DNA of 45,771 bases from Bacteroidaceae bacterium. GTDB lineage: Bacteria; Bacteroidota; Bacteroidia; Bacteroidales; Bacteroidaceae. A program made the translations under genes and the position numbers. The DNA lies in contig JAFRNY010000088.1 in the NCBI GenBank assembly GCA_017429945.1, forward strand, positions 1 to 45,771. The letters run 5' to 3'. The notes under the pieces were generated by a model. That model saw only the letters and a list, made by a program, of their open reading frames with translations. It searched no databases and was not told the origin of the DNA. How positions within the stretch are numbered: position 1 is the stretch's first letter; every line of letters begins with the position of its first letter. Shown one piece after another: positions 1,325-40,228 of the stretch.

Positions 1325-1432
1325 CTAATGCAGAATGGATAATGGATAATGGATAATGATGCTCACTATTGTCATTTACACATTCTTGATGGTGACCACC
1401 CTCCCCCTTTAGGGGGAGTGAGGAGGAGGTCT
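1325..1432. repeat. Repeat insertion inside fmt: heptamers plus GC palindrome
   Basis: GGATAAT is repeated three times at about 1334-1356. The palindrome CTCCCCCTTTAGGGGGAG lies at 1401-1418, flanked by GGTGACCACC and GAGGTCT. Read on the minus strand it encodes QTSSSLPLKGEGGHHQE and on to SIIHSALA in frame within the Fmt C-terminal domain. Other Fmt proteins, as I recall them, have no such segment. Confidence 0.8.
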
Positions 1433-2258
1433 GCTTCTCTGCAAAGAACACTTTAAGCTGCGTTTCCTTGCCATCGGCAGTGCGCAGTGTCGTCCAGGCG
1501 CCGGGATAGGGCGAGAGGCCGCGGATGAAGTCGTAGGCGCTCTTGACGGTGTGCTGATGCCAGAGTATCTGCGTATTCTCGCGTGTGAGCTTGGGAGCGG
1601 GGTGGAGAATACTTGAATGATCAATGGACGATGGCTGCTCTGATTGTCCATTTTCCATTTTCCATCAGCTCCCCCTGATCTATGGTCTCGACGGTGCCGG
1701 CGGCGATATCGTCGACGGTGCGCTGGACGAGGTCGGCGCCGAGGACCATGAGGCGGTCGTGGACATCGCCGACGGTGTCGGTGTCGGCAATGGGAACGGC
1801 CACGCGGTGGATGATGCGGCCGGTGTCGATGTCGTGGTCGAGGAAGAAGGTGGTGATGCCGGTCTCTGTCTCACCGTTGATGACGGCCCAGTTGATAGGC
1901 GCTGCGCCACGGTACTGGGGCAGCAGGGCGGCGTGGAGGTTGAAAGTGCCCAAGGGCGGCATCGCCCACACTACCTCGGGCAGCATGCGAAAGGCCACGA
2001 CGACCTGAAGGTCGGCCCTGTAGCTGCGCAGCTCCTCGAGGAATGCCTCATCCTTCAGCCGCTCAGGCTGAAGCACTGGTATGCCGTGCGCCACGGCATA
2101 CTGCTTTACGGGCGAAGCCTGCAGCGTGTCGTGATGCCGGCCCACAGGCTTGTCGGGCATCGTGACGACAGCCACTACGTTATAGTTGTTCTCTACAAGT
2201 TTGCTGAGGGAGGCGACCGCGAAGTCGGGGGTGCCCATGAAGACTATGCGCATATTAG

Positions 2259-2300
2259 AAGACCAACCCCCCTGCCCCTCCCTTGTAGGGAGGGGAGTAG
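2259..2300. repeat. GC palindromic element at the 5' end of fmt
   Basis: CCCCTCCC-TTGTA-GGGAGGGG with the outer GACC end and the flanking arm TCAAATACATTCTACT (minus strand). It lies between the upstream ATG at 2325 and the probable native ATG at 2253 of fmt. Confidence 0.8.
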
Positions 2301-2388
2301 AATGTATTTGACAGGTTGTATTCATCGTAGGTGTGTATTGATTGATGTCTAAAAAACGTGTAACTATTTATTCAAAATATGATTCTAT

Positions 2389-2733
2389 TTAACTTAAAAC
2401 ATTATCGGTATCATATAGGACTTCTTCGTTGCTGAAGCGCATGACATGAAAGCCCATTTGCTCCAGATCTCGTTCGCGCTCTGCATCATCCTCTTGTTGC
2501 TGTTGTTCGGCGTGATAGCCACCATCTACCTCGATGATTAAGCCCTCGCGTTGTGAAACGAAATCAACAATGTAATCACCTATAATATGTTGCCTGTTGA
2601 AACGAGTGCCTACATTCAAATCATGCAGCGCTCGCCAAAGAATAGATTCTGCAAGAGTCATATTGTGTCGGTTTTCTCTTGCAAATTCCTTCAGCAACTT
2701 ATATCTATCAGGTGAAGCCGTCCTATAATCCAT
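2389..2733 (-). CDS. DUF559 endonuclease-fold protein
   Basis: A 114-residue protein of the DUF559 family, related in fold to very-short-patch-repair and restriction-type nucleases; its biological role is not established. The family core is visible: FNRQHIIGDYIVDF, the acidic strand LIIEVDGGYH, and the terminal GFHVMRFSNEEVL. DYIVDF and EVDGGYH carry the likely metal-binding acidic residues. The gene looks more AT-rich than its neighbours and sits between the clc and fmt genes. Half-copies of the GC palindromic element lie on both sides (2757-2798 and 2259-2300), suggesting an inserted passenger gene. DNA cleavage activity is only inferred. Confidence 0.85.
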   Translation of the reverse strand: MDYRTASPDRYKLLKEFARENRHNMTLAESILWRALHDLNVGTRFNRQHIIGDYIVDFVSQREGLIIEVDGGYHAEQQQQEDDAERERDLEQMGFHVMRFSNEEVLYDTDNVLS

Positions 2734-2756
2734 ATATTAATATCAATTCTTGAAAG

Positions 2757-2798
2757 GTAACCGCTCCCTCCCTATCAGGGAGGGCGGGGGGAGAGTCC
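2757..2798. repeat. GC palindromic element between clc and DUF559 genes
   Basis: CTCCCTCCC-TATCA-GGGAGGG followed by CGGGGGGAGAGTCC, with the arm CTTGAAAGGTAACCG on the left. It fills the gap between the clc stop (2808) and the DUF559 start (2733). Confidence 0.85.
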
Positions 2799-2807: not shown

Positions 2808-4592
2808 TTACTCTTCACTCAAATCATGCATCATCGTCCTATACAGTGCGGTGACGTGGCTGCGGCGGATGAAACCTTCGAAGAGGCCGTCGGCATCGAC
2901 GACGGGGAGCGTCCAAGCCTTCGTAGCGTCGAAGGTCTGCATGACGAGGTCCATAGGGTCGTTGGTGGTGAGGCGGGCAGCACAGGGCGACATGAGGTCG
3001 CGCACGTGCAGCTTATGGTAGAGCTCGGTGCGGAACATGACGTGGCGCACACGGTCGAGGACGAGCACGGCCAGGAGTTTGCCGGCATTGTCGACGACGG
3101 GGAAGATGTCGCGCTCGCTGGAAGAGATCTGGCGCACCACCTCACCCAGGTCGTCGCCGGGGTGGAGCTGCTCGTCGTAGCGCTCGATGACGGAGTCCAT
3201 AGACATGAGCGTGAAGATGGCGTGATCTTTGTTGTGCGTCACCAACTCTCCCTTACGAGCCAGACGCATAGTGTAGATGCTGTGGGGCTCGAAGAGGATG
3301 ATGGTCAGGTAGGACGACACGGCGACGATCATCAGCGGCAGGAAGAGACCGTAGCCGCCGGTGAGCTCCGCGATGAGGAAGATTCCTGTCAGCGGAGCGT
3401 GCATGACGCCGCTCATCAGGCCCGCCATACCCAGGAGCGAGAAATTGTTCTCGGGGACGAGGATGCTGTTGCCGGGGAGCATATTCCATAAGCAGGCAAA
3501 CAAGAAGCCCGAAACAGCGCCGAGGAAAAGGCTGGGCGCGAAAGTGCCGCCGCAACCGCCGCCGCTGTTGGTGGCCGTAGTGGCAAAGACTTTGAAGATG
3601 ATGATGCCGGCGAGGTAGAGCAGCAGGAGGTGTGGGGCGGCGTAGAAGAGTGAGCCTTCGAGCACCTGGTTCCAGTCGGACTGGTTCTGTCCGTTCAGGA
3701 GCAGGCGTATCATATCGTAGCCTTCGCCGTAGAGCGACGGGAAGAGGAATATGAGCACACTGAGGATTGGCGCCGCTATGATGAAGCGCTTCCAGGGCGC
3801 CCCGAGGCGCCGGAACTGATCCTCGAGCCAGTTCATGACGCGTGTGAAATAGAGCGAGATGAAACCGCAGAAGACGCCGAGGAGCAGATAGGCCGGCAAA
3901 CGCTCGATGGCGAAGGCGTTGGTCAGATGAAATTCAAAGAGGTTGCCGGTGCCCGAGATGGCGAAGGTGACTGCTGCGGCCGTCACGCATGACACGAGCA
4001 GAGGCAGCAGGCTGCCAAGGGTGAAATCGAACATCAGTACCTCGAGCGTGAACACCAGGCCGGCAATGGGCGCCTTGAAGATACCACTGACGGCACCGGC
4101 GGCGCCGCAGCCCACGAGGAGCATGACGCGCTTGGAGTCCAGGCGGAAGAAGCGACCCAGGTTGCTGCCGATAGCCGAACCCGTCAGCACGATAGGCGCC
4201 TCGGCACCGACACTGCCACCGAAGCCGATGGTGATGCTGGAGGCGATGACCGACGACCATGTGTTGTGAGCCCTGATAAAACTCTTCTTGCGCGCTATGG
4301 CATAAAGAATCTTAGTGATACCGTGGCCGATGTCGTCGCGCACGACGTAGCGGACGAAGAGGCCGGTGAGGAAGATGCCGATGACGGGGTAGACGAGATA
4401 GAGCCAGTTGGCGCCAGTGATGGAGAACTGGTGCGTCAGCAGGTACTCTATCTGCTGGATAAGCCATTTCAGCAGCAGACCGGCCAGCGCTGTGAGCACG
4501 CCGATGACCAAGGCCAGCAGGAGCATGAACTGCCTGTCGGTGATGTGCGCCGTGCGCCACTGTATGAACTTATTAAAAACGGATGACGTCAT
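2808..4592 (-). CDS. CLC-family chloride channel or H+/Cl- exchanger with CBS domains
   Basis: A 594-residue inner-membrane protein of the CLC family. The hydrophobic core spans roughly residues 20-420. The gating-glutamate motif appears as GGSVGAEAPIVLTGS (GxEGP type, with the glutamate kept) and the second anion-binding motif as GGTFAPSLFLGA. Two cytoplasmic CBS domains follow at about residues 455-585 (ISSSERDIFPVVD, DLMSPCAARLT, AWTLPVVDADGLFEGF) and probably regulate the pore through nucleotide binding. The retained gating glutamate favours an exchanger over a passive channel, but this is an inference. It starts 55 bases after tsaC and is probably cotranscribed with it. Confidence 0.93.
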   Translation of the reverse strand: MTSSVFNKFIQWRTAHITDRQFMLLLALVIGVLTALAGLLLKWLIQQIEYLLTHQFSITGANWLYLVYPVIGIFLTGLFVRYVVRDDIGHGITKILYAIARKKSFIRAHNTWSSVIASSITIGFGGSVGAEAPIVLTGSAIGSNLGRFFRLDSKRVMLLVGCGAAGAVSGIFKAPIAGLVFTLEVLMFDFTLGSLLPLLVSCVTAAAVTFAISGTGNLFEFHLTNAFAIERLPAYLLLGVFCGFISLYFTRVMNWLEDQFRRLGAPWKRFIIAAPILSVLIFLFPSLYGEGYDMIRLLLNGQNQSDWNQVLEGSLFYAAPHLLLLYLAGIIIFKVFATTATNSGGGCGGTFAPSLFLGAVSGFLFACLWNMLPGNSILVPENNFSLLGMAGLMSGVMHAPLTGIFLIAELTGGYGLFLPLMIVAVSSYLTIILFEPHSIYTMRLARKGELVTHNKDHAIFTLMSMDSVIERYDEQLHPGDDLGEVVRQISSSERDIFPVVDNAGKLLAVLVLDRVRHVMFRTELYHKLHVRDLMSPCAARLTTNDPMDLVMQTFDATKAWTLPVVDADGLFEGFIRRSHVTALYRTMMHDLSEE

Positions 4593-5257: not shown

Positions 5258-8200
5258 CTATCTTTTGTTTGCTGTGATGTTATTCAGAAACTCGACCTCC
5301 ACGATGCGCAGCTCGTTCTTGGTCTCACCGCCATTGGCGGCTTTGAAGAGGTCGAGCTCGCCGGCGGCCGGTTCGGTTACTTCTACGATTCCGCCGAAGG
5401 CGTCAGCGTCCTTGCCGGCGCCTTTCAGACGTATCGTTATCTCGTTGGTCTTGACGCGCTTGATGGGTTTGAGGTGGACGTAACCCAGGCTGCGCTCCGT
5501 CTCACCGCTCCAGATGAGTCGTTTGCCAGCGTATATTTCGAGGGGATAGCTGCGCAGGCGCCAGCCTGTGAGCTTGATGCAGATGTCGTCGATGAAGGCT
5601 TTCTCGCTGAGGCGATAGGTGATCCACGCGGTGGAGAGGCGGCCGTCGTTCTTCCACTCCGAGAGCTCGTTGTCGTCGAAGCTGCGCGAGGCGTGCTCGC
5701 TGTCGAAGCCGGCAGTGGCCGAGACGATCTCAATGCCTCGGGCGAGGTCGGTGTAAGAGGGCGTGAGAGGCGTCTCGCCACGGAGGAATGAAGAGGAAGA
5801 TTTTTCACTTTTCACTCTTTCACTTTTCACTCTTTCACTTTTCACTCTTTCACTTTTCACTTCCAAGCTGGCTGGCTTCACGCCTGCGGCAGAAGCTGTG
5901 AGGCGGATGGTGCCGGCCGTGGTGGTCGTTCGTACGAGGACGCGGTTGACACCGCACTCCACGGGCAGCGCGCGCGCACCGACATAATTATCGGAGATAT
6001 TCTTGGTGGCGGCAGCGTCGAGGAGGCCTTCGGGGCGGTTGTCGTCGGGGCGCTGCAACGTCCGATTGTTGCGCGAGGCTATACCGCCAATCCAAGTGGC
6101 GGGGCCCGACAGGTCGAAGTTGATCATGCGGTCGTCGAGCGGACAGCGACGGCCCTGCTCGTCGACCACTTCGACCTGACAGAGCACCATATCGGCGCCA
6201 TCAGCCTTCGTGCCTTCGGGATTCTCGATGGCCGTAAGCTTCAGCTGATAAGGTTCGCCTGCGGTCTCGAGCTCGCAGCGACTGCCGTCGGAGCCGACGG
6301 CCTCGAGCGTACCGGGTTCGTAAGGCACGCTGTCGAAGGTGAAGAGATAGCGGTACCGTTGCCGCCCCTTGCCCAGCGAACGCCCGTTGAGGAAGAGCTC
6401 GACGGCGTCGGCTGTAGAGACAACGTGAACGGGGACCGTCCCCTCCCGTTCCCCGAGAGGAGCCCCCTCCCATCCCCACCGAGGGGGGGCGGCCAAATCC
6501 TCAAGAATCCCATCGGCATCGAACGCCCCCCCTCGGGGGGGACGGGAGGGGGCATTCCAATGCCCAATGATATAGGTCCTTGGTTCCTCGGGCTCAACCC
6601 AACCGCTCCACATGACCTGATGAGCGTAGAAGGCATCTTTGGGCAGGCGCATGGCATCGGTGACGCCGCTGGTGCGGTAGTTCGATTCGCCACGATGGTG
6701 GGTGTTGGTGTCGGAGAACACTATCTTTACGCCGCCCGACGAGACGCGCGTGCCGGTGCCCGGGCGTTCGAGCCAGTAGTCGTACCAACGGCGCACCATC
6801 TCGATGGCGAACTCGTCCATATTGTGGTTAAATTCGCGGGCCGGTTTGCCGCGATAGAGCGGGCCGTCGCCCTCGCGGTGGAAGGGATAGCTCCACTGGT
6901 TCCAATACTTGCGCAGGCCCTCATCGCGGCAGTACTCCATCGCCCACATCGGGTGCTTCTTGCTTTTGTTGATATAGAGCATCTCGCCTCCGTACTCCGC
7001 CTCGTCGATGTCGAGCATCTCGCGGCTGCCGATGGCACGACCGCCATGAGGGTCGAATTCGTCGCGGATGGCCTTCATCTCCAGCATGTGCTGGCGGCTG
7101 ATGCTCTCGTTGCCACTCTCGTAGAAGAGGATTGAGGGGTTGTTGCGGTTGTAGATGATGGCGTCGCGCATGAGAGCCGTTCGCTGTTGCCAGCGTGCGC
7201 CCTCGACGTCCTTCTCGGAGTCGCCGGCGGGCATAGCCTGCGGCAGGCCTACGCGGTCGCACGATTCGATGTCCTGTTTCCAAGGCGTGACGTGCATCCA
7301 ACGCACCATATTGCCACCGCTTTCGACCATCAGGGCATTAGAGAAATCGCTCAGCCAGGCAGGCACGCTAATGCCCACGCCCGGCCACTCATTGGAGGTG
7401 CGCTGGGCGTAGCCGTGCACCATCATGACGCGGTCGTTCAACCAAATCTTGCCTTCGCCGAAGTGTGTCTTGCGGAAACCGGTGCGGGTGGAAACCTTGT
7501 CACTCAAGATCAACGCCGGCACTTTGGCAGAACCGCCGTTCCTATGCTTAAGAATCAGCCCCTTGCCCTCATTTTTTTCTACGAGGGCGGTGGAGACCGT
7601 GTAGAGATAGCCATAGCCCCACGACCAGAAGTGCAGACCTTCGACAACCTTTTCAGCAGCTACGATGGCGGTCTGGCCGGGTTGCAACGTGGTCGGTTCG
7701 CTGTCAAAGACTGCCAATGGCTGATCGCCAGCATCGATGACGGTGGTCCTGAGACGGAAGGTGCGAGCCCGTGTGTCCTCGTTCTTCACCTGGCTCTCGG
7801 CGTGGATGACGGCCTTGTGACCGGGGATGTCGAAGTCGGTGGCATAGACGTAAGTGCCTGTAGTGCCGAGATTAGAATAAAGGGGCAGCGTCTGATAAAG
7901 CTTGTCGGTGATGTGCAACCGGACGTTCTTGGGCAGGCCGCCGTAGTTGGCATTGAAGTTACGGTCGTTCCACTGATAGCGGCTGTTGAGCACGCGGTCG
8001 CGGTAGGTCCAGCTGTTGTCGCAGCGCACGGCCAACACGTTCTCACCTTCTTTAATATAAGGCGTCAGGTCGAAGCCGAAAGCCATGACGCCATTGTCCG
8101 AAAACCCGAGGTGATGCCCATTGAGCCATACGTCGGCTCCCTGCCGTGCGCCCTCAAACTCGATGAACACCTTGCGCCCCTTCAATGCCAAGCTGTCGGC

Positions 8201-8473
8201 ATCGAATGTCTTGCGGTACCAGACGACGGTGTCGGTGAGATCCACGATGTCCTTGCGGAATGCCTCGTCGCCATTGAAGGCATAAGGGAGGGTTATGCGC
8301 TGCCAGGAGGAGGACTCTCCCCCCGAACTCCCTGTTAGGGAGGGAGAGTCTAAATCCCCGATGTGCAGCTCCCAGTCGGCATTGAAGTTCAGTCGCTGTC
8401 GCTCCACAGCCACTGCCGTCTGCACGGCAACCCATGCAAACATGAAGATGACAGTAATCCTATATAGTTTCAT
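5258..8473 (-). CDS. Secreted glycoside hydrolase family 2 (beta-galactosidase-like)
   Basis: A 1071-residue exported retaining glycosidase. An N-terminal signal segment (MKLYRITVIFMFAWVAVQTA) is followed by the sugar-binding jelly roll (ADVWLNGHHLGF, NVLAVRCDNSW) at about residues 30-215, an Ig-like domain, and a TIM barrel. The acid/base is the glutamate of YESGNES near residue 455; WAMEYCRDEG near 511 is a candidate nucleophile region. Beyond residue 620 come Ig-like domains and a discoidin-like C-terminal domain. Four repeat-derived segments interrupt it in frame: 8312-8351, 6434-6492, 6522-6556 and 5764-5862. The exact substrate cannot be read; an export and polysaccharide-use role fits Bacteroidales. 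It lies between prfC and tsaC. Confidence 0.88.
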   Translation of the reverse strand: MKLYRITVIFMFAWVAVQTAVAVERQRLNFNADWELHIGDLDSPSLTGSSGGESSSWQRITLPYAFNGDEAFRKDIVDLTDTVVWYRKTFDADSLALKGRKVFIEFEGARQGADVWLNGHHLGFSDNGVMAFGFDLTPYIKEGENVLAVRCDNSWTYRDRVLNSRYQWNDRNFNANYGGLPKNVRLHITDKLYQTLPLYSNLGTTGTYVYATDFDIPGHKAVIHAESQVKNEDTRARTFRLRTTVIDAGDQPLAVFDSEPTTLQPGQTAIVAAEKVVEGLHFWSWGYGYLYTVSTALVEKNEGKGLILKHRNGGSAKVPALILSDKVSTRTGFRKTHFGEGKIWLNDRVMMVHGYAQRTSNEWPGVGISVPAWLSDFSNALMVESGGNMVRWMHVTPWKQDIESCDRVGLPQAMPAGDSEKDVEGARWQQRTALMRDAIIYNRNNPSILFYESGNESISRQHMLEMKAIRDEFDPHGGRAIGSREMLDIDEAEYGGEMLYINKSKKHPMWAMEYCRDEGLRKYWNQWSYPFHREGDGPLYRGKPAREFNHNMDEFAIEMVRRWYDYWLERPGTGTRVSSGGVKIVFSDTNTHHRGESNYRTSGVTDAMRLPKDAFYAHQVMWSGWVEPEEPRTYIIGHWNAPSRPPRGGAFDADGILEDLAAPPRWGWEGAPLGEREGTVPVHVVSTADAVELFLNGRSLGKGRQRYRYLFTFDSVPYEPGTLEAVGSDGSRCELETAGEPYQLKLTAIENPEGTKADGADMVLCQVEVVDEQGRRCPLDDRMINFDLSGPATWIGGIASRNNRTLQRPDDNRPEGLLDAAATKNISDNYVGARALPVECGVNRVLVRTTTTAGTIRLTASAAGVKPASLEVKSERVKSERVKSERVKSEKSSSSFLRGETPLTPSYTDLARGIEIVSATAGFDSEHASRSFDDNELSEWKNDGRLSTAWITYRLSEKAFIDDICIKLTGWRLRSYPLEIYAGKRLIWSGETERSLGYVHLKPIKRVKTNEITIRLKGAGKDADAFGGIVEVTEPAAGELDLFKAANGGETKNELRIVEVEFLNNITANKR
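5764..5862 (-). repeat. 15-bp tandem repeat coding (VKSER)n inside the GH2 gene
   Basis: TTTTCACTCTTTCAC-type units of 15 bases repeat four times at 5802-5862. On the minus strand they encode VKSER three times then VKSEK. Because 15 is divisible by three, copy changes keep the frame. The adjoining 5764-5800 reads SSSSFLRGETPLTPS and contains GAGAGGCGTCTC. The whole stretch forms a linker between C-terminal domains. Confidence 0.85.
6434..6556. repeat. Paired GC palindromic element inside the GH2 gene
   Basis: Two inverted copies, about 6461-6492 (AGCCCCCTCCCATCCCC...) and 6522-6554 (its near-complement), enclose about 30 bases. A further CCCTCCCGTTCCCC segment lies at 6438-6454. All is read through in frame by the GH2 gene (WNAPSRPPRGGAF to PLGEREGTVPV), in the region after the catalytic barrel. 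Confidence 0.8.
8312..8351. repeat. GC palindromic element near the GH2 N-terminus
   Basis: GACTCTCCCCCCGAACTCCCTGTTAGGGAGGGAGAGTCT-type palindrome with ends GACTCTCC and GGAGAGTC. It is read in frame as DSPSLTGSSGGESSSW, inserted before the first strand of the sugar-binding domain. Confidence 0.8.
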
Positions 8474-13860: not shown

Positions 13861-14042
13861 AAGACCCACCCCAAACCCCTCCCATCAGGGAGGGGAGGTA
13901 GGTTACCATTCAAGCTGAGCAAGCATTTGTATAATTAACTATGGATACAACAACAAACAGTCAAATACATTCCACATACCCCACTCCTGAAGGGTCAAGC
14001 GTCTCTTCGAGCCGAGCGGAGGGGGAGCAGGGAGGGGGTCTG
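13861..14042. repeat. Inverted GC palindromic pair spanning the glk/pepT junction
   Basis: The left copy (13861-13907) begins AAGACCCACCCC and ends GTAGGTTACCATTCAAG. The right copy (13978-14042) is preceded by CAGTCAAATACATTCCAC and ends GGGAGGGGGTCT, with an internal extension (GTCTCTTCGAGCCGAGCGG). The pair encloses the pepT start codon at 13941, and the right copy is translated as PepT residues about 13-34. Confidence 0.8.
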
Positions 14043-15254
14043 ATTGCCCGCTTCCTCGACTACGTTTCCTACGACACCCAATCCTCTGAGGAGGCTGAGG
14101 GCTGCCCTAGCACGCCCAAACAGCTCATCTTCGCACGCCATTTGGCCGACACGCTCGAGGAGATGGGCCTCGAAGAGGTGGAGATGGATGAGCAGGGCTA
14201 CATCTACGCCACCCTACCCTCCAACGTGCCCGCCGAAGTGCCTACAGTCGGCTTCATCGCACACTACGACACCAGCCCCGACTGCTCGGGAGCCGACATT
14301 CACCCGCGAATAGTCAGTAACTACGACGGCGGCGACATCGTGCTCGATGCCGACGAGGGCATAGTCACCTCACCCAAGATGTTCCCCGAAATGCTCGACC
14401 ACGTGGGCGAAGACCTCATCGTGACCGACGGCCACACACTCCTCGGCGCCGACGACAAAGCCGGTATTGCAGAGATCGTAGAGGCCATGGCATTCCTTAT
14501 GGAGCATCCAGAGATCGAGCACGGACGCGTACGCATAGCCTTCAACCCCGACGAGGAGATAGGCGCCGGCGCTCACCTCTTCGACGTTGAGAAATTCGGA
14601 GCCGAATGGGCCTACACTATGGACGGCTCAGAAGTGGGCGAGCTGGAGTACGAGAACTTCAACGCCGCAGCCGCCACTATCCACATCAAAGGCCTTAACG
14701 TTCACCCAGGCTACGCCAAGGACAAGATGCGCAACGCATGTCTCATCGCAGCCGACTTCGTCAAAGCGATGCCTAAGGACGAAGTGCCCGAATGCACCGA
14801 AGGCTACGAAGGCTTCTACCACCTCACCGGCATCAAAGCAACCGTAGAGGAAGCCACCCTCAACTATATCATACGCGACCACGACCGCCAACGCTTTGAG
14901 GAGCGCAAGGCTCACGTCGAGGACCTCGTGGCCGTGTTCGAGGAGCGCTACGGCGCAGGCGTTGTCACCGCCGACATTCGTGACCAATACTATAATATGA
15001 AGCAGCAACTTGAAGGCAAGGAACACATCATCGACATTGCACGCCGCGCCATCGAAGAAGCGGGCATGGAGTGTAAGGTCAAGGCCATACGTGGCGGCAC
15101 CGACGGCGCGCAGCTCTCGTTCAAAGGCCTCCCCTGCCCCAACATCTTTGCCGGCGGACTCAATTTCCACGGCCGCCACGAGTTCGTGCCAATTCAATCG
15201 ATGCAGAAAGCCATGCACACGGTGGTGAACATCTGCCGTATCGTTGCTGAATAA
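13941..15254 (+). CDS. pepT: Peptidase T (tripeptide aminopeptidase)
   Basis: A 437-residue M20B metallopeptidase that removes N-terminal residues from tripeptides in the cytoplasm. Zinc-site motifs are visible: [54 protein letters not shown] and [11 protein letters not shown], plus [11 protein letters not shown]. The native family N-terminus should begin near [16 protein letters not shown]. Here it is preceded by about 34 residues ([18 protein letters not shown] and on to GEQGGG) from a repeat element. No ATG lies between the element and the core, so the leader is probably translated. The gene overlaps nothing and ends 13 bases before the uxaC start. Confidence 0.95.
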
Positions 15255-22060: not shown

Positions 22061-22936
22061 AATACAATGGACAAGAACACAATTAGTCAATCACATCCCA
22101 CTCTCCCCCTAAAGGGGGAGCGGGGAGGGGGTCTTTTTTTGATTAAGGATCACGTCGTCATCATCACCGGCGGCACAGGCGTGCTCGGCCGCGCCATCGC
22201 CAAATACCTGGCCGGCGAAGGCGCCAAGGTAGTCATTCTCGGACGTAAGAAAGAAGTGGGTGATACCATCGTGGCCGACATCGTCGCCGCTGGCGGCGAA
22301 GCCTGTTTCATGGTCACGGACGTACTCAATCGTGAGCTGTTGGAGCGCAACTGCGCCGAGATTCTCGAGCGCTACGGTCGCGTAGATGCCTTGCTCAACG
22401 CTGCAGGAGGTAATATGCCAGGAGCCACAATTCCGCCCGACCGAACATTCTTCGACCTCGACCCGGCGCAGTTCCAGACCGTGCTCGACCTCAACCTCAC
22501 CGGCACCGTCATTCCCACTCAAGTTTTCCTACGCCCGATGGTCGAACAGGGCCGCGGCGCCATCGTCAACTTCTCGTCGATGGCAGCCTTCCGTCCCATG
22601 ACGCGCGTCTGCGGTTATGCTGCCGCTAAGGCGGGCATCAGTAACTTCACAGCATATATGGCCACCGAGTGTGCCCGCAAGTTCGGCGAGGGCATTCGCG
22701 TCAACGCCATCGCTCCAGGCTTCTTCATAACCGAACAGAACCGCGCACTCCTCACCAATCCCGATGGCAGCTACACCGAGCGCGGCCGCGACGTCATTCG
22801 CCAGACGCCCTTCGGGCGTATGGGCCAGCCCGAGGAGCTCTGCGGCACTATTCACTACCTTATCTCCGATGCCTCGCGCTTCGTCACCGGCGCCGTGGCC
22901 GTCGTCGACGGCGGCTTCAACGCTTTCGCCATGTAA
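22055..22936 (+). CDS. SDR oxidoreductase, probable D-mannonate oxidoreductase
   Basis: A 293-residue short-chain dehydrogenase, likely interconverting fructuronate and mannonate with NAD(P)H in place of classical UxuB. The cofactor motif VVIITGGTGVLGRAIAKYL, the LLNAAGGNMPG segment and the catalytic FSSMAAFRPMTRVCGYAAAKAG (Ser, Tyr, Lys) are clear. The C-terminus SRFVTGAVAVVDGGFNAF is typical. The first 28 residues are repeat-derived (ISQSHPTLPLKGERGGGL); no ATG lies between them and the Rossmann strand, only a weak TTG. It follows uxuA directly, which supports the role. Confidence 0.9.
   Translation: MKNTMDKNTISQSHPTLPLKGERGGGLFLIKDHVVIITGGTGVLGRAIAKYLAGEGAKVVILGRKKEVGDTIVADIVAAGGEACFMVTDVLNRELLERNCAEILERYGRVDALLNAAGGNMPGATIPPDRTFFDLDPAQFQTVLDLNLTGTVIPTQVFLRPMVEQGRGAIVNFSSMAAFRPMTRVCGYAAAKAGISNFTAYMATECARKFGEGIRVNAIAPGFFITEQNRALLTNPDGSYTERGRDVIRQTPFGRMGQPEELCGTIHYLISDASRFVTGAVAVVDGGFNAFAM
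22098..22133. repeat. GC palindromic element in the SDR N-terminus
   Basis: CACTCTCCCCCTAAAGGGGGAGCGG then GGAGGGGGTCT, read in frame as HPTLPLKGERGGGL. Only a right-type copy is present here. Confidence 0.85.
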
Positions 22937-23164: not shown

Positions 23165-23722
23165 TCATGCCTCATCTTCATCGTCATCATCGCCGAGGTC
23201 GAAATCGAAGTCGCTGAAAAAGATTGGGATATCAGACGTTTGTGTATCAAAGTCGTCGAGGGCACGGCGCTCTTTCTTCGTGGGGCGCCCGGTGCCTCGC
23301 GCACGGCCCACAAAACCGCTGATGCGGTTCATCTCCAACAGTTCGTACTGCTCGGGGGCTGTGACGTTCTCGAGGATCTCGGGGATCAGCTTGGCACCCA
23401 CGCGGTGCTCAATGGCTTGGAGAATGCGGAAACTGTAGGTGACGGGCGGCTTGCGCACATCGACGACATCGCCGGCCTTGACTGTTCGCGAAGGTTTCAT
23501 CTGCGCACCGCCTATGCTGACCTGCCCTTTCTTGCAAGCGGCAGCGGCCATAGAGCGCGTCTTGAAAATGCGGGCGGCCCAGAGCCATTTGTCGATGCGG
23601 GCAACAGGGCCGGCAGCTACAGACCCACCCCCGACCCCTCCCGTCATGGAAAGACCCCCTCCCCGTACCCCTTCAAGGGGGAGAGTGGAATGATTTGGCT
23701 TTTGGTGGGATTTGTTTGGCAT
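23165..23722 (-). CDS. hslR: S4-domain RNA-binding protein, Hsp15 type
   Basis: A 185-residue protein with an S4 RNA-binding domain at about residues 42-100: ARIDKWLWAARIFKTRSMA, then ACKKGQVSIGG and SRTVKAGDVVDVRKPP. Hsp15 homologues bind 50S subunits carrying stalled nascent chains. Residues 1-40 come from two adjacent GC palindromic elements (NHSTLPLEGVRGGGL and TGGVGGGS). An internal ATG between them (M26) could be an alternative start. The C-terminus is acidic (DFDFDLGDDDDEDEA). It directly follows pth. Confidence 0.92.
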   Translation of the reverse strand: MPNKSHQKPNHSTLPLEGVRGGGLSMTGGVGGGSVAAGPVARIDKWLWAARIFKTRSMAAAACKKGQVSIGGAQMKPSRTVKAGDVVDVRKPPVTYSFRILQAIEHRVGAKLIPEILENVTAPEQYELLEMNRISGFVGRARGTGRPTKKERRALDDFDTQTSDIPIFFSDFDFDLGDDDDEDEA

Positions 23723-23805
23723 TTATAAATTATTTTCGTTTAGTTCTGTTGACTCTTCTTGAAGGTGACCACTCTCCCCCTTGAGGGGGAGCGGGGAGGG
23801 GGTCT
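23621..23805. repeat. Inverted GC palindromic pair spanning the pth/hslR junction
   Basis: On the minus strand, one copy (23766-23805) begins AGACCCCCTCCCCGCTCCCC and forms the Pth C-terminal codons ([13 protein letters not shown]). The other (23652-23688) ends GGGGAGGGGGTCT and forms the HslR N-terminus. They match as inverted repeats over about 37 bases with three differences, and enclose the pth stop and hslR start. A third partial copy lies at 23621-23645. Confidence 0.85.
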
Positions 23806-24472
23806 CCTTCTTCTTTCTATTCAACTGATTCATCGCCATCTGAATGCCAGCGAGGCAGAACGTCTTGATGGCCGCTGCGGCAGTCTTAGTGCACTCTGGG
23901 ATGAGCTCTTCCTGCTCGGGGCTGAAGCGGCCGAGTACGTAGTCGACCTGCTGCCCGGTATAGTAGTCGTGACCGATGCCGAAACGCAGACGGGCATACT
24001 GCTGAGTGCCAAGCGTCTGAGCTATATGCTTGAGGCCGTTGTGGCCGCCATCACTGCCTGCGGGCTTCATGCGCAGTTGACCGAATGGCAGCCCCACGTC
24101 GTCTACGCAAATGAGCAGATGCTCCAGTTCGATCTTCTCTTGCTGCATCCAGTAACGCACGGCGTTGCCGCTAAGGTTCATGAAGGTGCTGGGCTTGAGC
24201 AAGATGAGCTGACGGCCTTTTACGCTGATGCGCGTGACGAAGCCGTAGCGGCGGTCCTCCCACACGGTCTCGCGACCCTTGTCCTCATTGACGGAAGCGG
24301 CCAAGGCATTGACGATGCGGAAACCGGCGTTGTGGCGCGTGCCTTCGTAGTCCGGGCCTATATTACCAAGGCCCACGATAAGGAATTTTTCCATAGGAAG
24401 ACCCCCTCCCCGCTCCCCCTCAAGGGGGAGTGTGGTATCTTTGGAAAAGAGTTTCTTCAGAAAGGAGAACAT
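23723..24472 (-). CDS. pth: Peptidyl-tRNA hydrolase
   Basis: Pth cleaves peptidyl-tRNAs released from ribosomes. The core runs from [20 protein letters not shown] with the catalytic histidine in TRHNAGF, through [11 protein letters not shown] and [15 protein letters not shown], to [12 protein letters not shown]. The frame is 249 residues, about 50-60 more than usual, because repeats extend both ends: [20 protein letters not shown] at the start and [17 protein letters not shown] at the end. ATG at 24394 would remove the N-terminal extension; ATG at 24472 keeps it. It sits between rplY and hslR, an order I recall as common in Bacteroidales. Confidence 0.95.
24398..24436. repeat. GC palindromic element at the pth 5' end
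   Basis: AGACCCCCTCCCCGCTCCCC then CTCAAGGGGGAGTGTGG. On the minus strand it reads [14 protein letters not shown] just before the probable native Pth start. Confidence 0.85.
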
Positions 24473-24637: not shown

Positions 24638-24652
24638 ATATCTTTTCTTGGA

Positions 24653-24695
24653 GGTAATTGCTCCCTCCCTAACAGGGAGGGCGGGGGGAGAGTCC
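24653..24695. repeat. GC palindromic element downstream of rplY
   Basis: GGAGGTAATTG then CTCCCTCCCTAACAGGGAGGG and CGGGGGGAGAGTCC. It is nearly the same copy as the one at 2757-2798. Confidence 0.85.
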
Positions 24696-28500: not shown

Positions 28501-29543
28501 GGGATGACCAACAGCTCTACATCCGTTCCATCAACGACGACAAGCAGACCGTCACCGTCACTATTCTCGCCAACGGCAAGGCCGTGAGCAAAGAGTTAGT
28601 CGTAGAAGGCACTACAATAATTCGCCTCGACGACGGCGAAATATCTGCCTACGCTGAGGAGGCCGAGGAAGCTCTGCCCGAACTCACAGCGCAGTACATC
28701 GTAAACCCTAGTTTCGAGGAGGACGTCACGTGGGGCACCACGGGCAACATCACCCTCGGCGGCACAGCCTATAACCCCTGCTACACGCAGACGGTCAAGG
28801 CCGCCAACGCGCAGCTGCCACAGGTGTTGCCCGTAGTTGGTTGGACGGCAGAGAGCACCCTCGCGCCTGCCAGCAACTACGCCCTCCTCTACTCCATGCC
28901 CTACAGCTTCACTCAGTACTGCGTCTCGCCCTCCAATGTCGGCAACAGCGCCAGCATCATGGCCGTGCCCGCCGCCTTCGAAGAGAGCGTGGGCACACGC
29001 TGCCTCTCGGTGCTTAATTCATGGACCATTGGCACAAACGCCATAAGCCAGACGACTACGTTGCCCGCAGGCATGTACGAACTCAGCTTCGACCTGCGCT
29101 ACGCCTGCCCCAACGAGAGCCGCCGCACCGCGCCCAATGTCATTGCGGCTACGGGCGGCAACGTGAACACACTGCTCTGCGGAGTAGTCATCGGCAACCA
29201 AGAGCACTACGCCCCTTACCCGACCACTGCCGACACCTGGCAACGGACGACTATCCCATTCATGCTCGACGAAGAAACGGAAGTGACCTTTCGCCTCGGC
29301 CTGGCCACGACAGCTAATCAAGGCGCTGCCAACCAGACGCGCATCTACGTTGACGACCTCCGCCTCTGCGGCATCGTAAAGCCCATCGAGGACGGCATTG
29401 AGGAGGTGAGAACGGTCAATGGTCAACGGTCAACGGTCAATGGTCAAAGTTCAAAGTTCTACGACCTGGCAGGCCGTAGGCTGTCCGACGTCCGGAGCCG
29501 TGGGCTCTACATCAACAACAATTCAAAAATAGTTGTACCGTAA
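25533..29543 (+). CDS. Large secreted protein, possible polysaccharide lyase or hydrolase
   Basis: A 1336-residue exported protein I cannot assign to a named family. A signal peptide (MRIKAKILAAALTALATTAA) precedes a jelly-roll-like module at about residues 25-225, opened by EFITNPSFEDD. A helix-rich region at about 235-660 resembles an alpha/alpha toroid, with Trp, His and Tyr motifs (LQNHNLFHTSYQNVVMQELG near 490, GNDWSLFLFDQITSY near 560, RRMGVEGHRVMMTYLMHLA near 620). A beta-rich region follows to about 1050. Near 1055 a second module starts with QYIVNPSFEEDVTW. The C-terminus FYDLAGRRLSD to GLYINNNSKIVV is a sorting-type tail common in Prevotella-like exported proteins. A toroid plus beta-sandwich is the layout of several lyases (PL8, PL12, PL21), hence the guess. 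Confidence 0.6.
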   Translation: MRIKAKILAAALTALATTAAVAQSDVTAEFITNPSFEDDAAACTDAVKKSESSDGLRGWDVSAITGWTTTRPDKQLLITADCFTDNNFGKTPIADGQYALFQRMGWNNGASTITQTTSKALPAGKYALTLKAKAFYANGGSSATVQVKGGTKSLGNATITFDHGSAGCMNAAAWKDVSLRFTLTEASAITIATDIAWVSGGSQIALDDFRLTRLPDDTPDPEPEVTQFTEGVITHDFVPEAEMMQDLLEMLARSMQYAKSIWFQCQAPNSVGEACGYFKGNSAGQSNEDGVRTNADFAMISAFLVKYAQGKVTLPDDITWDEVKDMAMRSLVFGYSTHKANRLKVTSNNAYWGSTSTSDNTWESSLWTMSLCFAAHFLDDQLTDAQRTYIYNMVKAECNYELGRSIPTGYAGDTKAEENGWEADVLACALGLYPNDALAERWFDRLRAFAINSYSQVDDAADQTVIDPSYDQKTVADYYRGQNLYDDYTLQNHNLFHTSYQNVVMQELGEAHLALLLFQGGEQKWKTNALMHNQQEVFDLVLKRLALADGELAMPNGNDWSLFLFDQITSYSTAACFLRDADALLLENMAYKYIKARQQTTKDGSWLLNSDIGPRRMGVEGHRVMMTYLMHLAASTADLQPSTWDDFSARQQDAYIFRSQNIVRASSADRFVTFSWSTGLKSYTGYFTDTTPDRNKIICPFRANNTGNLIGWYNVSGRGTNATPTVSGVYDLNENAFTMNGRLNTNDATLENSFVIAATKGNAVVYLNNVKALQNATISGRRGGLLAITTDPFTAEQRTIYTAEGEFTGNGAATQTFATQWANIDQSVGIVTLGGTGQMAFGDRALNNSIQCAKFYPLYSQGNQSVSKDKVVDRAAVIYYSRTDAAMTEALQAQAASLADQLPDGWNGLRFTDADGTPYLLVANLGGSKNRAELKDLTADYGAPVLASETFITDSRGTTTVALDADHALMQPLTVYIKGSGVAAKMFNPWDDQQLYIRSINDDKQTVTVTILANGKAVSKELVVEGTTIIRLDDGEISAYAEEAEEALPELTAQYIVNPSFEEDVTWGTTGNITLGGTAYNPCYTQTVKAANAQLPQVLPVVGWTAESTLAPASNYALLYSMPYSFTQYCVSPSNVGNSASIMAVPAAFEESVGTRCLSVLNSWTIGTNAISQTTTLPAGMYELSFDLRYACPNESRRTAPNVIAATGGNVNTLLCGVVIGNQEHYAPYPTTADTWQRTTIPFMLDEETEVTFRLGLATTANQGAANQTRIYVDDLRLCGIVKPIEDGIEEVRTVNGQRSTVNGQSSKFYDLAGRRLSDVRSRGLYINNNSKIVVP
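29414..29459 (+). repeat. In-frame heptamer array near the C-terminus
   Basis: GGTCAAT, GGTCAAC, GGTCAAC, GGTCAAT, GGTCAAA, GTTCAAA: six 7-base units totalling 42 bases (14 codons), encoding VNGQRSTVNGQSSK just before the C-terminal sorting tail. Loss or gain of a single unit would shift the frame and remove the tail. Confidence 0.85.
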
Positions 29544-36652: not shown

Positions 36653-37837
36653 ATGGAAAAGAAAACTTGCCTCTATGACCGCCACGTGGCACTCGGCGCA
36701 CTGATGTCGCCCTTCGGAGGGTTCATCATGCCGATCCAGTACACCAACATCACCGACGAGCACAACGCCGTGCGCCAGCACTGCGGCGTCTTCGACGTCT
36801 CCCACATGGGCGAAGTGCGCATCACCGGCCCCGAGGCCGAGCGCTACGTCCAGCACATCTTCACCAACGATGTCGCCGGCGCTCCCGTAGGCCAGATCTA
36901 CTATGGCATGATGTGTTACCCCAACGGCGGCACCGTCGACGACCTGCTCGTCTACAAGATGGGCGACAATGATTTCTTCCTCGTCATCAACGCCGCAAAC
37001 ATTGACAAGGATGTCGAGTGGATGCAACAGCAGATGCAAGGCTTCGACATCCGCTTTGAACACCAGAGCGACTACTATGGGCAGCTCGCCGTGCAAGGCC
37101 CCGAGGCTGAAGCTGTTGTAGAGGAAGTCCTCGGCCTACCGTGCAAGGAGCTGAAGTTCTATACCGCAAAGGTGGTAGCCCACCCCCAACCCCTCCCCAA
37201 GGGAGGGGAGTCCCAAGGGGATGTCGACATTGCCTCAAGCGGAAAAGAGTCCCCCTCCCTTGGGGAGGGGTTAGGGGTGGGCTCCTCTATCATCATCTCA
37301 CGCACCGGTTACACGGGCGAGGACGGTTTCGAGATCTATGGCTCGCATGAGTTCACACAAAAGGCGTGGGACAAACTGCTCGAAAGCGGGCGCTGCAAGC
37401 CCTGCGGCCTCGGCTGTCGCGACACACTGCGCTTCGAGGTAGGCCTACCCCTCTATGGCGACGAGCTCTCGGCTGACATCACACCCGTCATGGCCGGCCT
37501 CTCCATCTTCGTCAAGCTCGACAAAGAGGAGTTCATCGGCAAGGAAGCACTCGCCGAGCAGAAAGCCAACGGCGCACCCGCACGTATCATCGGCATCGAG
37601 CTGGCCGACAAGGCCATCCCACGCCATGGCTACCCCGTCCTCAACGAGGCCGGCGAGCAGGTGGGCGAAGTCACCACCGGCTACCACTGCCTCTCGGTCG
37701 ACAAGAGCGTATGCATGGCTCTGGTCAAGACCGAATTCGCCAAGCTGGGCACACCCCTGCAGGTGCAGATCCGCAAGAAGGTCTTCCCCGGCACAGTCGT
37801 CAAGAAGCAGTTCTATAATAAGAGTTACAAGAAGTAA
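36653..37837 (+). CDS. gcvT: Glycine cleavage T protein (aminomethyltransferase)
   Basis: A 394-residue T protein that moves the aminomethyl carbon from H protein to tetrahydrofolate, releasing ammonia. Motifs: PFGGFIMPIQYTNITDEHNA, GVFDVSHMGEVRITGP, RTGYTGEDGFEIYG, CGLGCRDTLRFEVGLPLYG and GYPVLNEAGEQVGEVTTGY. ATG 36653 starts the family N-terminus (MEKKTCLYDRHVALG). A 105-base, 35-residue element (37178-37282; PQPLPKGGESQG to SLGEGLGVG) interrupts the region just before SRTGYTG. The protein is otherwise complete and presumably functional. Confidence 0.96.
   Translation: MEKKTCLYDRHVALGALMSPFGGFIMPIQYTNITDEHNAVRQHCGVFDVSHMGEVRITGPEAERYVQHIFTNDVAGAPVGQIYYGMMCYPNGGTVDDLLVYKMGDNDFFLVINAANIDKDVEWMQQQMQGFDIRFEHQSDYYGQLAVQGPEAEAVVEEVLGLPCKELKFYTAKVVAHPQPLPKGGESQGDVDIASSGKESPSLGEGLGVGSSIIISRTGYTGEDGFEIYGSHEFTQKAWDKLLESGRCKPCGLGCRDTLRFEVGLPLYGDELSADITPVMAGLSIFVKLDKEEFIGKEALAEQKANGAPARIIGIELADKAIPRHGYPVLNEAGEQVGEVTTGYHCLSVDKSVCMALVKTEFAKLGTPLQVQIRKKVFPGTVVKKQFYNKSYKK
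37178..37282. repeat. Complete inverted-pair element in frame inside gcvT
   Basis: Left arm GCCCACCCCCAACCCCTCCC (37178-37214) and right arm (37247-37282, ending GGTTAGGGGTGGGC) are inverted copies with about three differences around a 32-base spacer. The total of 105 bases equals 35 codons and keeps the gcvT frame. Confidence 0.88.
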
Positions 37838-38162: not shown

Positions 38163-38211
38163 CCCTTAGCCTTTCTTATTTTCTTATTATCACAATTTCA
38201 CATTTAAGATT

Positions 38212-38592
38212 ATGGCAACATTTGAATCCGGACTCCGCTACAGCGAGTCACACGAGTATGTTCGCGTAGAAGGCGAATTTGGTTACATTGGTATCAGCGA
38301 CTATGCTCAGCACGCTCTGGGCAACGTCGTATACGTCGACATGCCTGAAGTGGACGATGAAGTCACCGCAGGCGAGGAGTTTGGCGCAGTAGAGAGCGTC
38401 AAGGCCGCCAGCGACCTCATCGCACCCGTCAGTGGCACCGTCGTTGAGGTGAATGAAGCCCTCGAGGACGAGCCCGAGCTCCTCAACAAGGACGCCTTCG
38501 CCAACTGGATCATCAAGGTCCAGCTCTCCGACCCCGCCGAACTCGACAACCTCATGGACGTCGAGGCCTACAAGGCACATTGCGAAAATTAA
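38212..38592 (+). CDS. gcvH: Glycine cleavage H protein
   Basis: A 126-residue lipoyl carrier that shuttles the aminomethyl group between P, T and L proteins. The lipoylated lysine is in GAVESVKAASDL (ESVKA motif). YSESHEYVRVEGEFGYIGIS and GNVVYVDMPEVDDEV are typical. Length is normal. An inverted-repeat element begins right after its stop. Confidence 0.97.
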   Translation: MATFESGLRYSESHEYVRVEGEFGYIGISDYAQHALGNVVYVDMPEVDDEVTAGEEFGAVESVKAASDLIAPVSGTVVEVNEALEDEPELLNKDAFANWIIKVQLSDPAELDNLMDVEAYKAHCEN

Positions 38593-38593
38593 A

Positions 38594-38756
38594 AGACCCA
38601 CCCCCGACCCCTCCCGTTAGGGAGGGGAGTGGGGAGGCTGTCATCATTTTTTGCTTAACCTTTCGTTATAATTTGTTTTTATTATAGTTTATGAACAATA
38701 ACCAAACAACGCGCCAGCCCCTCCCCTCCCTAACGGGAGGGGTCGGGGGTGGGTCT
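38594..38756. repeat. Perfect 36-bp inverted pair spanning gcvH/gcvPA
   Basis: The left arm (38594-38629, AGACCCACCCCCGACCCCTC...) and right arm (38721-38756, ...GGTCGGGGGTGGGTCT) are exact reverse complements over 36 bases. Each arm is itself partly palindromic around GTTAGG. The 91-base interior is AT-rich and contains the gcvPA start codon at 38691. The right arm is translated as GcvPA residues about 11-22. Confidence 0.92.
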
Positions 38757-40079
38757 TTCAAGTATTTCCCCCACACCAGCGAAGATTTGCAGGAGATGCT
38801 TCAGGCTTGCGGCGTTTCATCCGTCCACGACCTCTTCGCCGATGTGCCCGAGGCGGCCCGCTTCCAGCGCGACTACAACCTGCCCGACGCACTCTCCGAG
38901 ACCGACCTGCGCCTCTTCTTCGAGCAGCTGACAAGCCCGCTCGCCACGCAGCAACTCATCTGCTTCGCCGGTGCCGGTTGCTACGACCACTATGCCCCCA
39001 GCGTCGTACAGAACCTCATCGAGCGCAGCGAATTCCTCACCTCCTACACCCCCTATCAGGCTGAAATCTCGCAGGGCACGCTCCACTACATCTTTGAATA
39101 CCAGTCGATGATAGCCGAGCTCACAGGCCTCGACATCTCGAACGCCTCGATGTACGACGGCGCCACCGCCACCGCCGAGGCCGTAATGATGGCATGGTCG
39201 AATGCCAAGAAAGCCACCCGCGTGCTCGTCAGCGAGACGCTCGACCCCAAGGTGCGCCGCGTAGTCGACACCTATGCACACTTCCACGGCGTACCACTAC
39301 AGCTCATCCCCGCCAAGGACGGTGCCCTCGACCGCGACGCCCTCGACCGCGAGCTCTCCGAAGGCGGTGTGGCAGGCGTCATCGTGCAGCAGCCTAACTA
39401 CTACGGCATCGTAGAAGACTATACGGGCGTCGCCGAGAAAGTCCACGAGCAAAAAGGCATCTTCGTCATCAACGCCAACCCCTCCGACCTCGCCATACTG
39501 AAGACACCCGGCGAGTGGGGCGCCGACGTTGCCGTGGGCGAAGGCCAGAGCCTCGGTATTCCCATGACCTTCGGCGGCCCCGGCGTAGGCTTTATGGCCT
39601 GCACCGAAAAGCTCATCCGCAAGATGCCTGGCCGCATCGTAGGCCAGACGCTCGACAACCGCGGCCAGCGCTGCTTCGTGCTGACACTGCAAGCACGCGA
39701 GCAGCACATACGCCGCCAGAAAGCCACCTCGAACATCTGTTCCAACCAAAGCCTCATGGCACTCTACGTAACCATCTACCTCAGTCTCATGGGCAAAGAA
39801 GGTCTGCGCGAAGTTGCTGAGATGAGCTATGCAGGAGCCCACACGCTCTGCGACAAGCTCATCGCCACAGGACATTTCCGCCTCACCTTCCCCGACAAAC
39901 CCTTCTTCAATGAGTTCTGCCTCGACTACGACGGCGACCTCGACGCCCTGCTGGCCGAGGCCACCGAATGCGGCTACCTCGCCGGCGTCAAAGTAGGAGA
40001 GAAAACCCTCATGCTTGCCGTCACCGAACAGCGCACGCCCGAGGAGATTGAAGAACTGTGCGAGATTCTCAATAAGTAG
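38691..40079 (+). CDS. gcvPA: Glycine dehydrogenase (decarboxylating), subunit 1
   Basis: A 462-residue N-terminal half of the P protein, which pairs with GcvPB to decarboxylate glycine using PLP. Family segments: FKYFPHTSEDLQEMLQACGV, AGAGCYDHYAPSVVQNL, FLTSYTPYQAEISQGTL, MYDGATATAEAVMMAW and GFMACTEKLIRKMPGRIVGQ. Residues 1-22 (MNNNQTTRQPLPSLTGGVGG and on) are repeat-derived. No ATG lies between the repeat and the core KYFPHT, so the leader should be part of the protein. Confidence 0.96.
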   Translation: MNNNQTTRQPLPSLTGGVGGGSFKYFPHTSEDLQEMLQACGVSSVHDLFADVPEAARFQRDYNLPDALSETDLRLFFEQLTSPLATQQLICFAGAGCYDHYAPSVVQNLIERSEFLTSYTPYQAEISQGTLHYIFEYQSMIAELTGLDISNASMYDGATATAEAVMMAWSNAKKATRVLVSETLDPKVRRVVDTYAHFHGVPLQLIPAKDGALDRDALDRELSEGGVAGVIVQQPNYYGIVEDYTGVAEKVHEQKGIFVINANPSDLAILKTPGEWGADVAVGEGQSLGIPMTFGGPGVGFMACTEKLIRKMPGRIVGQTLDNRGQRCFVLTLQAREQHIRRQKATSNICSNQSLMALYVTIYLSLMGKEGLREVAEMSYAGAHTLCDKLIATGHFRLTFPDKPFFNEFCLDYDGDLDALLAEATECGYLAGVKVGEKTLMLAVTEQRTPEEIEELCEILNK

Positions 40080-40228
40080 AAGACCCACCCCTCACCCTCC
40101 CTTTAGGGAGGGAGTGAGTACCTTTCAAGATTAGTAATCATCAAGACATCATAGATATAATGGAAGAATTTACAACCAGTCAAATACATTCCACTCTCCC
40201 CCTCGAGGGGGAGCGGGGAGGGGGTCTT
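40079..40228. repeat. Inverted GC palindromic pair spanning gcvPA/gcvPB
   Basis: The left copy starts AGAAGACCCACCCCTCACCC at the gcvPA stop and ends GTGAGTACCTTTCAAG. The right copy (40192-40228) follows CAGTCAAATACATTCC and ends GGGGAGGGGGTCT. The interior carries the gcvPB ATG (40160). Confidence 0.9.

Follow-up and report, generated by a model that had tools for sequence, protein, structure and literature searches.

The stretch of DNA analysed here, 45,771 nucleotides of contig JAFRNY010000088.1 from a Bacteroidaceae bacterium (assembly GCA_017429945.1) and referred to below as the window, contains about twenty GC-rich palindromes, which in their most complete arrangement form the two ends of a small element between clc and fmt. 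There, a left palindromic arm, a gene with a DUF559 nuclease domain, a leader with an ATG and a right palindromic arm lie on the minus strand as follows:

2808-4592, minus strand: clc, the upstream neighbour of the complete element.
2260..2798, minus strand: complete element between clc and fmt, with left arm, DUF559 gene, leader ATG and right arm.
2755..2798, minus strand: left arm of the complete element, its outer end after the clc stop and its inner flank reading GGTTACCTTTCAAG.
2389..2733, minus strand: DUF559 gene (PF04480, EDxHD/Vsr-like nuclease fold; Pfam E 2.3e-32), a stop trimming its C-terminus by a few residues.
2260..2320, minus strand: right arm of the complete element, read as the fmt N-terminal leader MNTTCQIHSTPLPTREGQGGWSSN, with the ATG at 2323-2325.

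Smaller arrangements of the same arms recur along the window as left-gap-ATG-right sites, as arm-gap-arm doublets and as solo arms. The gene names are derived from Pfam matches, and the finer names pepT, glk, rplY and hslR come from an earlier note on this DNA or from general knowledge.

13862..13914, plus strand: left arm of the glk/pepT element.
13962..14041, plus strand: right arm at glk/pepT, within pepT and in its frame, with the ATG at 13941.
23752..23805, minus strand: left arm at pth/hslR; read in frame, it makes up the pth C-terminal tail.
23621..23692, minus strand: right arm(s) at pth/hslR, in frame with an S4-domain gene (23165-23722, minus strand) at its N-terminus.
24652..24695, minus strand: left arm of the rplY/pth element.
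24397..24438, minus strand: right arm at rplY/pth, in the pth frame at its N-terminus.
38594..38756, plus strand: gcvH/gcvPA element, with left arm, gap with ATG at 38691 and right arm in the gcvPA frame.
40081..40227, plus strand: gcvPA/gcvPB element, with left arm, gap with ATG at 40160 and right arm in the gcvPB frame.
37177..37283, plus strand: doublet of 107 bp inside gcvT, in frame.
6462..6553, minus strand: doublet (arm-gap-arm) in a glycoside hydrolase family 2 (GH2) gene (5258-8473, minus strand), the frame open throughout (inverted repeat, gene call and Pfam).
8310..8346, minus strand: solo arm, close to the N-terminus of the same GH2 gene (5258-8473) and in frame with it.
1396..1435, minus strand: solo right-type arm in the fmt C-terminal domain.
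22088..22134, plus strand: right arm, in frame at the N-terminus of a short-chain dehydrogenase gene (22055-22936).

The earlier note had described the left-gap-ATG-right order at glk/pepT, pth/hslR, gcvH/gcvPA and gcvPA/gcvPB, and it is found at all four; at pth/hslR the pattern stands and the detail differs, in that the left arm lies inside the coding end of pth and the hslR-like open reading frame (S4 domain) starts in the gap. Two additional sites of this kind are rplY/pth (24397-24695) and clc/DUF559/fmt (2260-2798). The figure of about twenty copies likewise agrees with the 15 hairpins of a strict scan, which required an all-pyrimidine 5' stem of 6 bp or more, plus five extra arms with imperfect or interrupted stems (6462-6491, 8310-8346, 14005-14044, 23621-23650 and 23652-23688). 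By inspection, the window arms start with AGACC, AGACT or AGCCC. In the frame of the neighbouring gene the hairpins read as protein sequence, as at the gcvPB N-terminus, at the N- and C-terminus of pth, in the dehydrogenase (HPTLPLKGERGGGL) and in fmt (STPLPTREGQGG). The fmt gene itself is present as two overlapping open reading frames in different frames (1182-1658 and 1621-2325, minus strand), which may reflect gene decay, a frameshift or an assembly error.

Beyond the window, 59 hairpins were counted in 245,771 bp when ten 20-kb stretches of the same genome were added, a density that is biased upward because these stretches were taken from contigs with known matches; three dinucleotide shuffles yielded 0, 1 and 0. 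The right-arm pattern has 36 genome-wide matches at up to three mismatches, and its reversed control has 0. Among the 59 hairpins, 15 of which are the window's own, 12 are near starts, with the outer end facing downstream in 10 (p 0.04), and 16 are near stops, with the outer end facing upstream in 15 (p 0.0005). Random positions would give 10.5% near starts and 10.6% near stops, and the enrichment is 1.9-fold (p 0.03) and 2.6-fold (p 0.0003), respectively. Another 24 hairpins are intragenic, 12 in each orientation, and 7 lie far from genes. The polarity towards starts that had been proposed from the window is borne out by these numbers, and so is the view that the hairpins are not ordinary repetitive extragenic palindromes (REPs) behind stop codons, once their positions are scored against starts and stops. 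As a property of the single repeat, polarity does not hold, and the intragenic copies stand in both orientations; it comes from a two-ended element between co-directional genes, which has its left end by the upstream stop and its right end among the opening codons of the gene that follows. Inverted doublets are present at high copy, and a 105-bp doublet of this genome has at least 22 matching places in four relatives at 87-99% identity, so that small copies have also spread to new places. One of the stretches, L101 (G000:C47:20001-40000), holds 20 hairpins in 20 kb, the other nine having 0-8 each, and its genes match several contigs per relative, like a repeated gene family.

The link between the palindromes and DUF559 is general in the home group. 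The genome of the window (G000; 2.96 Mb, incomplete, 82% complete) has five DUF559 matches, each of which is enclosed by a left and a right arm and has host genes on both sides, namely glycyl-tRNA synthetase/lipoprotein, dehydrogenase/ribF, clc/fmt, nrdD/nrdG and ispG/cysS, the last with DUF559 fused to ispG in one open frame. These host names were read from sequence, and those of clc and fmt (Pfam), ribF and nrdG (NCBIfam) and cysS (NCBIfam, at a sister locus) were checked. PF04480 was found in 31 of 61 genomes (this one and 60 relatives). The locus sample consisted of the five loci of this genome, 29 new loci from the PF04480 search of the 61 genomes, 30 regions of relatives and 80 named loci, with the exclusion of seven loci (short flanks or weak scores), three without the domain by the search profile and one named locus (short flank); some named loci apparently stem from the same genomes as the relatives, so that the two sets overlap. 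When the best inverted match between the 200 bp before and the 250 bp after each DUF559 gene was taken as a repeat score, terminal inverted repeats with a score of at least 12 were found at 48 of 54 loci of this genome and its relatives and at 76 of 79 named loci, compared with 14 of 515 shifted control windows. A score of at least 14 was reached by 44 of the 54, as opposed to 13 of 216 combinations made by swapping flanks between loci, which still score because the arms of different elements share a motif; each arm matches its own partner far better. The flank motif GGTnACCTTTCAAG (at most one mismatch) occurs at 5 of 133 DUF559 loci and 0 of 262 controls and is a subfamily mark only. The best named-record matches to the DUF559 proteins of this genome belong to Bacteroidaceae and Prevotellaceae genomes, many from rumen samples, and the carriers include records with strain titles (Xylanibacter brevis ATCC 19188, which has an argC element, L155, and Prevotella sp. 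tc2-28), so the element is not a binning artefact.

Hairpin load, taken as matches to CTCCC-n3..11-GGGAG minus those to a reversed control in the 61 genomes, follows the number of DUF559 genes: in rank correlations that ignore kinship, the excess gives rho 0.59 (p 1.3e-4) for 37 genomes of the genus and rho 0.64 (p 7e-4) for 24 genomes of other families.

Related species carry or lack the element at the same site. At pepT, the empty site of the relative G003 reads MESERLIERFLDY, and the window has the element leader instead; at gcvPA, G003 has MQFKYFPH where the window has ...GGGSFKYFPH; and at gcvPB, 24 relatives inspected have a plain junction with ATGAAC or ATGAAT, and the leader was present in none of 41 other loci aligned. 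In all three cases, neither the intergenic DNA nor the native start seen in the empty allele is left in the filled one. The 107-bp doublet of gcvT sits in a loop, and 24 of 29 relatives are without such an insert; other inserts are found in the same loop in G029, G020, G079, G015 and G027, the first four with GC-rich arms or half-arms. At one site that is filled in G003, the empty counterpart in the genome of the window has GACCC and GGTC with four bases between them, perhaps a favoured target or else an excision scar.

Both neighbours are co-directional with DUF559 at 123 of 129 loci, these being the loci, out of 139, with both neighbours callable by codon usage. By hand count, the stop-free frame of the downstream gene starts -52 to +16 nt from the end of the DUF559 domain at 100 of 126 loci; at 74 of 119 loci it remains open over 75 nt or more on the upstream side of the right end, the count for ordinary genes being 32 of 119, and the right hairpin is preceded by an in-frame ATG at 95 of 111. 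The resulting joins read ...STPLPTREGQGGGSS|LRIVFMGTPEF in fmt, ...HREGHGGGS|LRVGILGAAGYTGG in argC, ...TGRAGGES|ISVIKVGG in argB and ...KREGQGVSL|LGIESSCDD in a tsaD-like gene. The element thus brings an in-frame ATG and a leader that join the downstream gene, and this ATG is presumably the one used. NCBIfam models were compared at 30 of 49 site representatives, and at 20 of the 30 no more than about six codons, on either side, separate the right end from the model start, which is not necessarily the native start of the species. Two loci (L108, L166) are undecided and eight deviate: L032 (ribF), L183 (rsmD) and L080 (asnS, its native start apparently kept) have the end about 12-14 codons inside; it lies 10-14 codons upstream in L123, L138, L060 and L173 and much further upstream in L045. 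A fixed reading phase of the right hairpin was considered and rejected, as the counts over the three phases (60/33/12, or 28/15/7 with one per site) show a bias and no rule.

DUF559 is also found within genes. In one other family of the order, where 10 of 31 genomes have a match, leuS holds five intact and two decayed copies, valS one and ileS one, all in frame and inserted just before the threonine-rich motif of the editing domain. A leuS copy at the same place is present in G038, from another family of the order, and in the class-level relatives L332 and L335; the remaining leuS cases were named from sequence alone. Among ten embedded cases analysed with Pfam, host domains lie on both sides of DUF559 in seven (valS, ileS, leuS, two metH and two hsdR) and on one side only in three methyltransferase-like proteins, one of the hsdM type, and the frames are open through the embedded domain. 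No intein domain was found in the ten (Pfam, E up to 1e-6; no ribozyme search was made), the matches being host domains, DUF559 and the related MTES_1575 only. Two loci, L293 and L294 (leuS of G092 and G105), have a weak-scoring, apparently decayed DUF559 in frame and no clear palindromes, and are possible fossil insertions in an essential enzyme.

A small mobile element of Bacteroidota, which carries DUF559, inserts at gene junctions or in frame and leaves doublets by internal deletion, thus probably has the hairpins as its terminal inverted repeats; that this is a mobile element with two ends, a nuclease gene and frame-keeping insertion is well supported. In its autonomous form, the element would comprise a left palindrome, the small DUF559 nuclease gene, an ATG with a short leader and a right palindrome, placed between co-directional genes or in frame within one gene. 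At a junction, it would take the place of the intergenic DNA together with the native start of the downstream gene, which would receive a new start codon and a leader that reads through the right palindrome in frame, and because the element supplies this start codon, its imprecise loss would cost the host a useful gene. Internal deletion would produce arm-gap-arm copies of about 100-300 bp, moved in trans, and the arm-gap-arm copies observed do look like deletion derivatives. DUF559 is the likely mover: it may cut DNA at or for the palindromes, or at targets near translation starts, and repair from an element-bearing copy would then spread the element. Such break-and-repair suits the replaced flanks and the absence of clean target duplications at the junctions compared better than cut-and-paste does.

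Several observations weigh against this explanation. No clean target duplication was seen at the filled and empty junctions compared with G003 and G016, in a comparison where flanks are replaced and the aligned pieces are 2-18% diverged. The rank correlations ignore kinship between genomes, and G018 and G027 have a large hairpin excess (194 and 196) with no DUF559 found, both genomes being incomplete. Among the DUF559 genes of the window's genome, one has an internal stop and the window copy is slightly shortened. That the arms are an element's own is shown in part, and among phylum-wide DUF559 loci 12 of 26 reach the repeat score (control 2 of 50), so that outside the home group the palindromes are linked less strongly to DUF559 or have decayed more.

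Whether the element is aimed at translation starts or merely survives there by selection is the point on which one alternative turns. According to it, the element is mobile in the same way, insertion is random, and purifying selection leaves the copies at starts, stops and tolerant loops; its odds overlap with those of the preferred explanation, and we put it only a little below even. Copies do lie in variable protein loops, such as the gcvT loop with inserts in several relatives, and a leader that protects in-frame junctions only would make the survivors appear targeted. At two thirds of the loci compared, however, the right end is about six codons or less from the model start, and the loss of the native start at pepT, gcvPA and gcvPB is unexpected for random insertion upstream of an ATG.

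The kinship of the nuclease counts in favour of the preferred explanation. Searched as a profile, 44 DUF559 sequences match 3hrl (E 2.6e-27) and, at E 1.3e-8, 3r3p, which is the homing endonuclease I-Bth0305I, and the predicted fold (mean predicted local distance difference test score, pLDDT, 86.9) has 3hrl and 3r3p as its top Foldseek matches, with E 1.9e-4 for homology to I-Bth0305I and Vsr lower (E 0.064). Residues D57, E68, D70 and H74 are invariant in the 44 sequences, and on profile and predicted structure the catalytic domain is homologous to the EDxHD homing endonuclease family. In the literature, DUF559 is placed in that family (PMC9403480) and is called a Vsr-like repair protein in Caulobacter (PMC12907096). 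PADLOC gave weak matches only, the best to a homing endonuclease model (2.5e-7), and no defence system. An ordinary homing endonuclease gene, with intronless homing at fixed sites and with palindromes that are the favoured landing places of the gene, made by another system, or hitch-hiking flanks, is an unlikely alternative. Homing would fit the absence of target duplications, the leuS copy at the same place in several families, and a tree of 130 DUF559 proteins that requires 43 site changes (minimum 26; shuffled mean 71.3, with 0 of 200 shuffles as low). The labels of this tree are the downstream genes (85 rows at 27 sites), and with few columns and many weak forks it suggests that same-site elements are often kin, as with homing or inheritance. 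Several DUF559 lineages nevertheless appear to have reached the same site in some cases, the largest site, s0, having 8 rows and 7 changes, of which well-supported branches force only 2. In the home group, nearly every locus has a left arm that matches its right arm, hairpin load tracks DUF559 number, and many dispersed doublets would not be made by homing alone.

Regulatory RNA, in the form of attenuators, terminators or translation controls selected at operon junctions, would account for strong hairpins by stops and starts, and a hairpin in the 5' coding region could alter translation; with 24 of 59 hairpins intragenic, presence at the same junction varying between related species, and arms that frame a nuclease gene and lie in open frames, we regard this origin as very improbable, although the arms could have acquired such a role later.

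Least probable of all is that the hairpins are REPs or REPINs, their inverted doublets, moved by a REP-associated tyrosine transposase (RAYT, Y1_Tnp), the resemblance of palindrome doublets with a short spacer to REPINs, the single Y1_Tnp match in the genome and the lean of the 24 other-family genomes (rho 0.40, p 0.054) being set against a match, L036 (G000:C69:12997-13344), that is flanked by an unrelated repeat of its own (GGGGGTGCTCGCTGCGCTCGTACCC), the lack of tracking between RAYT number and hairpin excess in the genus (rho 0.07, p 0.66) and the five hairpin-rich genomes G015, G016, G018, G019 and G020 in which no Y1_Tnp match was found. RAYT was accordingly rejected as the partner. The linked enzyme that the earlier note had suggested looking for is present as the DUF559 nuclease, and not as a RAYT.

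Other inserts were observed as well. A second class consists of short simple repeats (AAAAGTGAAAAATG-like) at window positions 5803-5861, 22017-22063 and 29411-29459, in ribF of L032, and at GcvPB amino acid 156 in G003, G016, G064 and G018; some are in frame within genes (KVKSERVESEGVKSER; VDKLTSKQVDKLTSKQ). Length changes of GcvPB (amino acids 156 and 302-337) were rejected as insertions of the element, no arms being seen and the one read as DNA being AT-rich. A nine-base tandem array (CGATTACTC/CGAATACTC) lies at 16682-16816, ahead of the gene at 16813.

A broader proposal is that DUF559 elements form a separate class of mobile DNA, in which a homing-type nuclease has its own terminal palindromes, targets translation starts and in-frame protein positions, replaces the start codons of essential genes, which would make its loss difficult, and sheds protein-lengthening doublets across Bacteroidota; we consider this possible, at somewhat less than an even chance. 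No account of DUF559 with palindromes, of start-codon replacement or of DUF559 in synthetase genes was found in the open-access literature, subscription papers and preprints being largely outside the search. A mobile element that persists by supplying the start codons of useful genes would follow a survival strategy of its own, different from those of introns, inteins and insertion between genes, and it would explain odd N-terminal leaders or insertions (STPLPTREGQGGG-like) and start-site mispredictions in these bacteria. DUF559 would also gain another likely role besides Vsr-like repair. Protein-coding palindromes are best known from Rickettsia, and the same logic could, if it holds, explain them there and elsewhere; a candidate enzyme gene with the same ends as the repeats makes the origin of such repeats testable.

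Among known systems, the element works like RAYT/REPIN and like the Rickettsia palindromic elements, yet fits neither. With REPtrons (RAYT, REP and REPIN) it shares a palindrome-flanked enzyme gene and many scattered, non-autonomous inverted doublets, whose copy number here follows the enzyme gene. It differs in its enzyme, an EDxHD/Vsr-like DUF559 nuclease in place of an HUH tyrosine transposase, and in having copies in frame with genes to which they bring a start codon; moreover, by inspection the window arms have no GTAG or CGTC foot tag, the sequences by which REPs are defined in PMC3733652. The Rickettsia palindromic elements are described in PMC10969869 as short palindromes that sit in frame within unrelated housekeeping genes, where they encode a recurring peptide. 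By that description, in-frame insertion in unrelated protein genes and the recurring peptide are common to both, whereas the phylum is different and the element described here has a candidate mobilising gene with the same ends and gene starts as a main site. We know of no enzyme or mobilising gene for the Rickettsia elements. The EDxHD homing endonucleases of the I-Bth0305I family, both free-standing and intron-encoded, have a homologous catalytic domain and are found in conserved housekeeping genes; unlike them, DUF559 here is a single domain of about 110 amino acids, with no intein domain found around it, with terminal palindromes and non-autonomous derivatives, and with a host protein that keeps the insert or leader. 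Finally, miniature inverted-repeat transposable elements (MITEs) of bacterial transposons are similar in their terminal inverted repeats, apparent internal deletion derivatives and size of about 100-300 bp, whereas no transposase of a known family is linked to the palindromes described here and no target duplication was found at the junctions compared, where the flanks are replaced.

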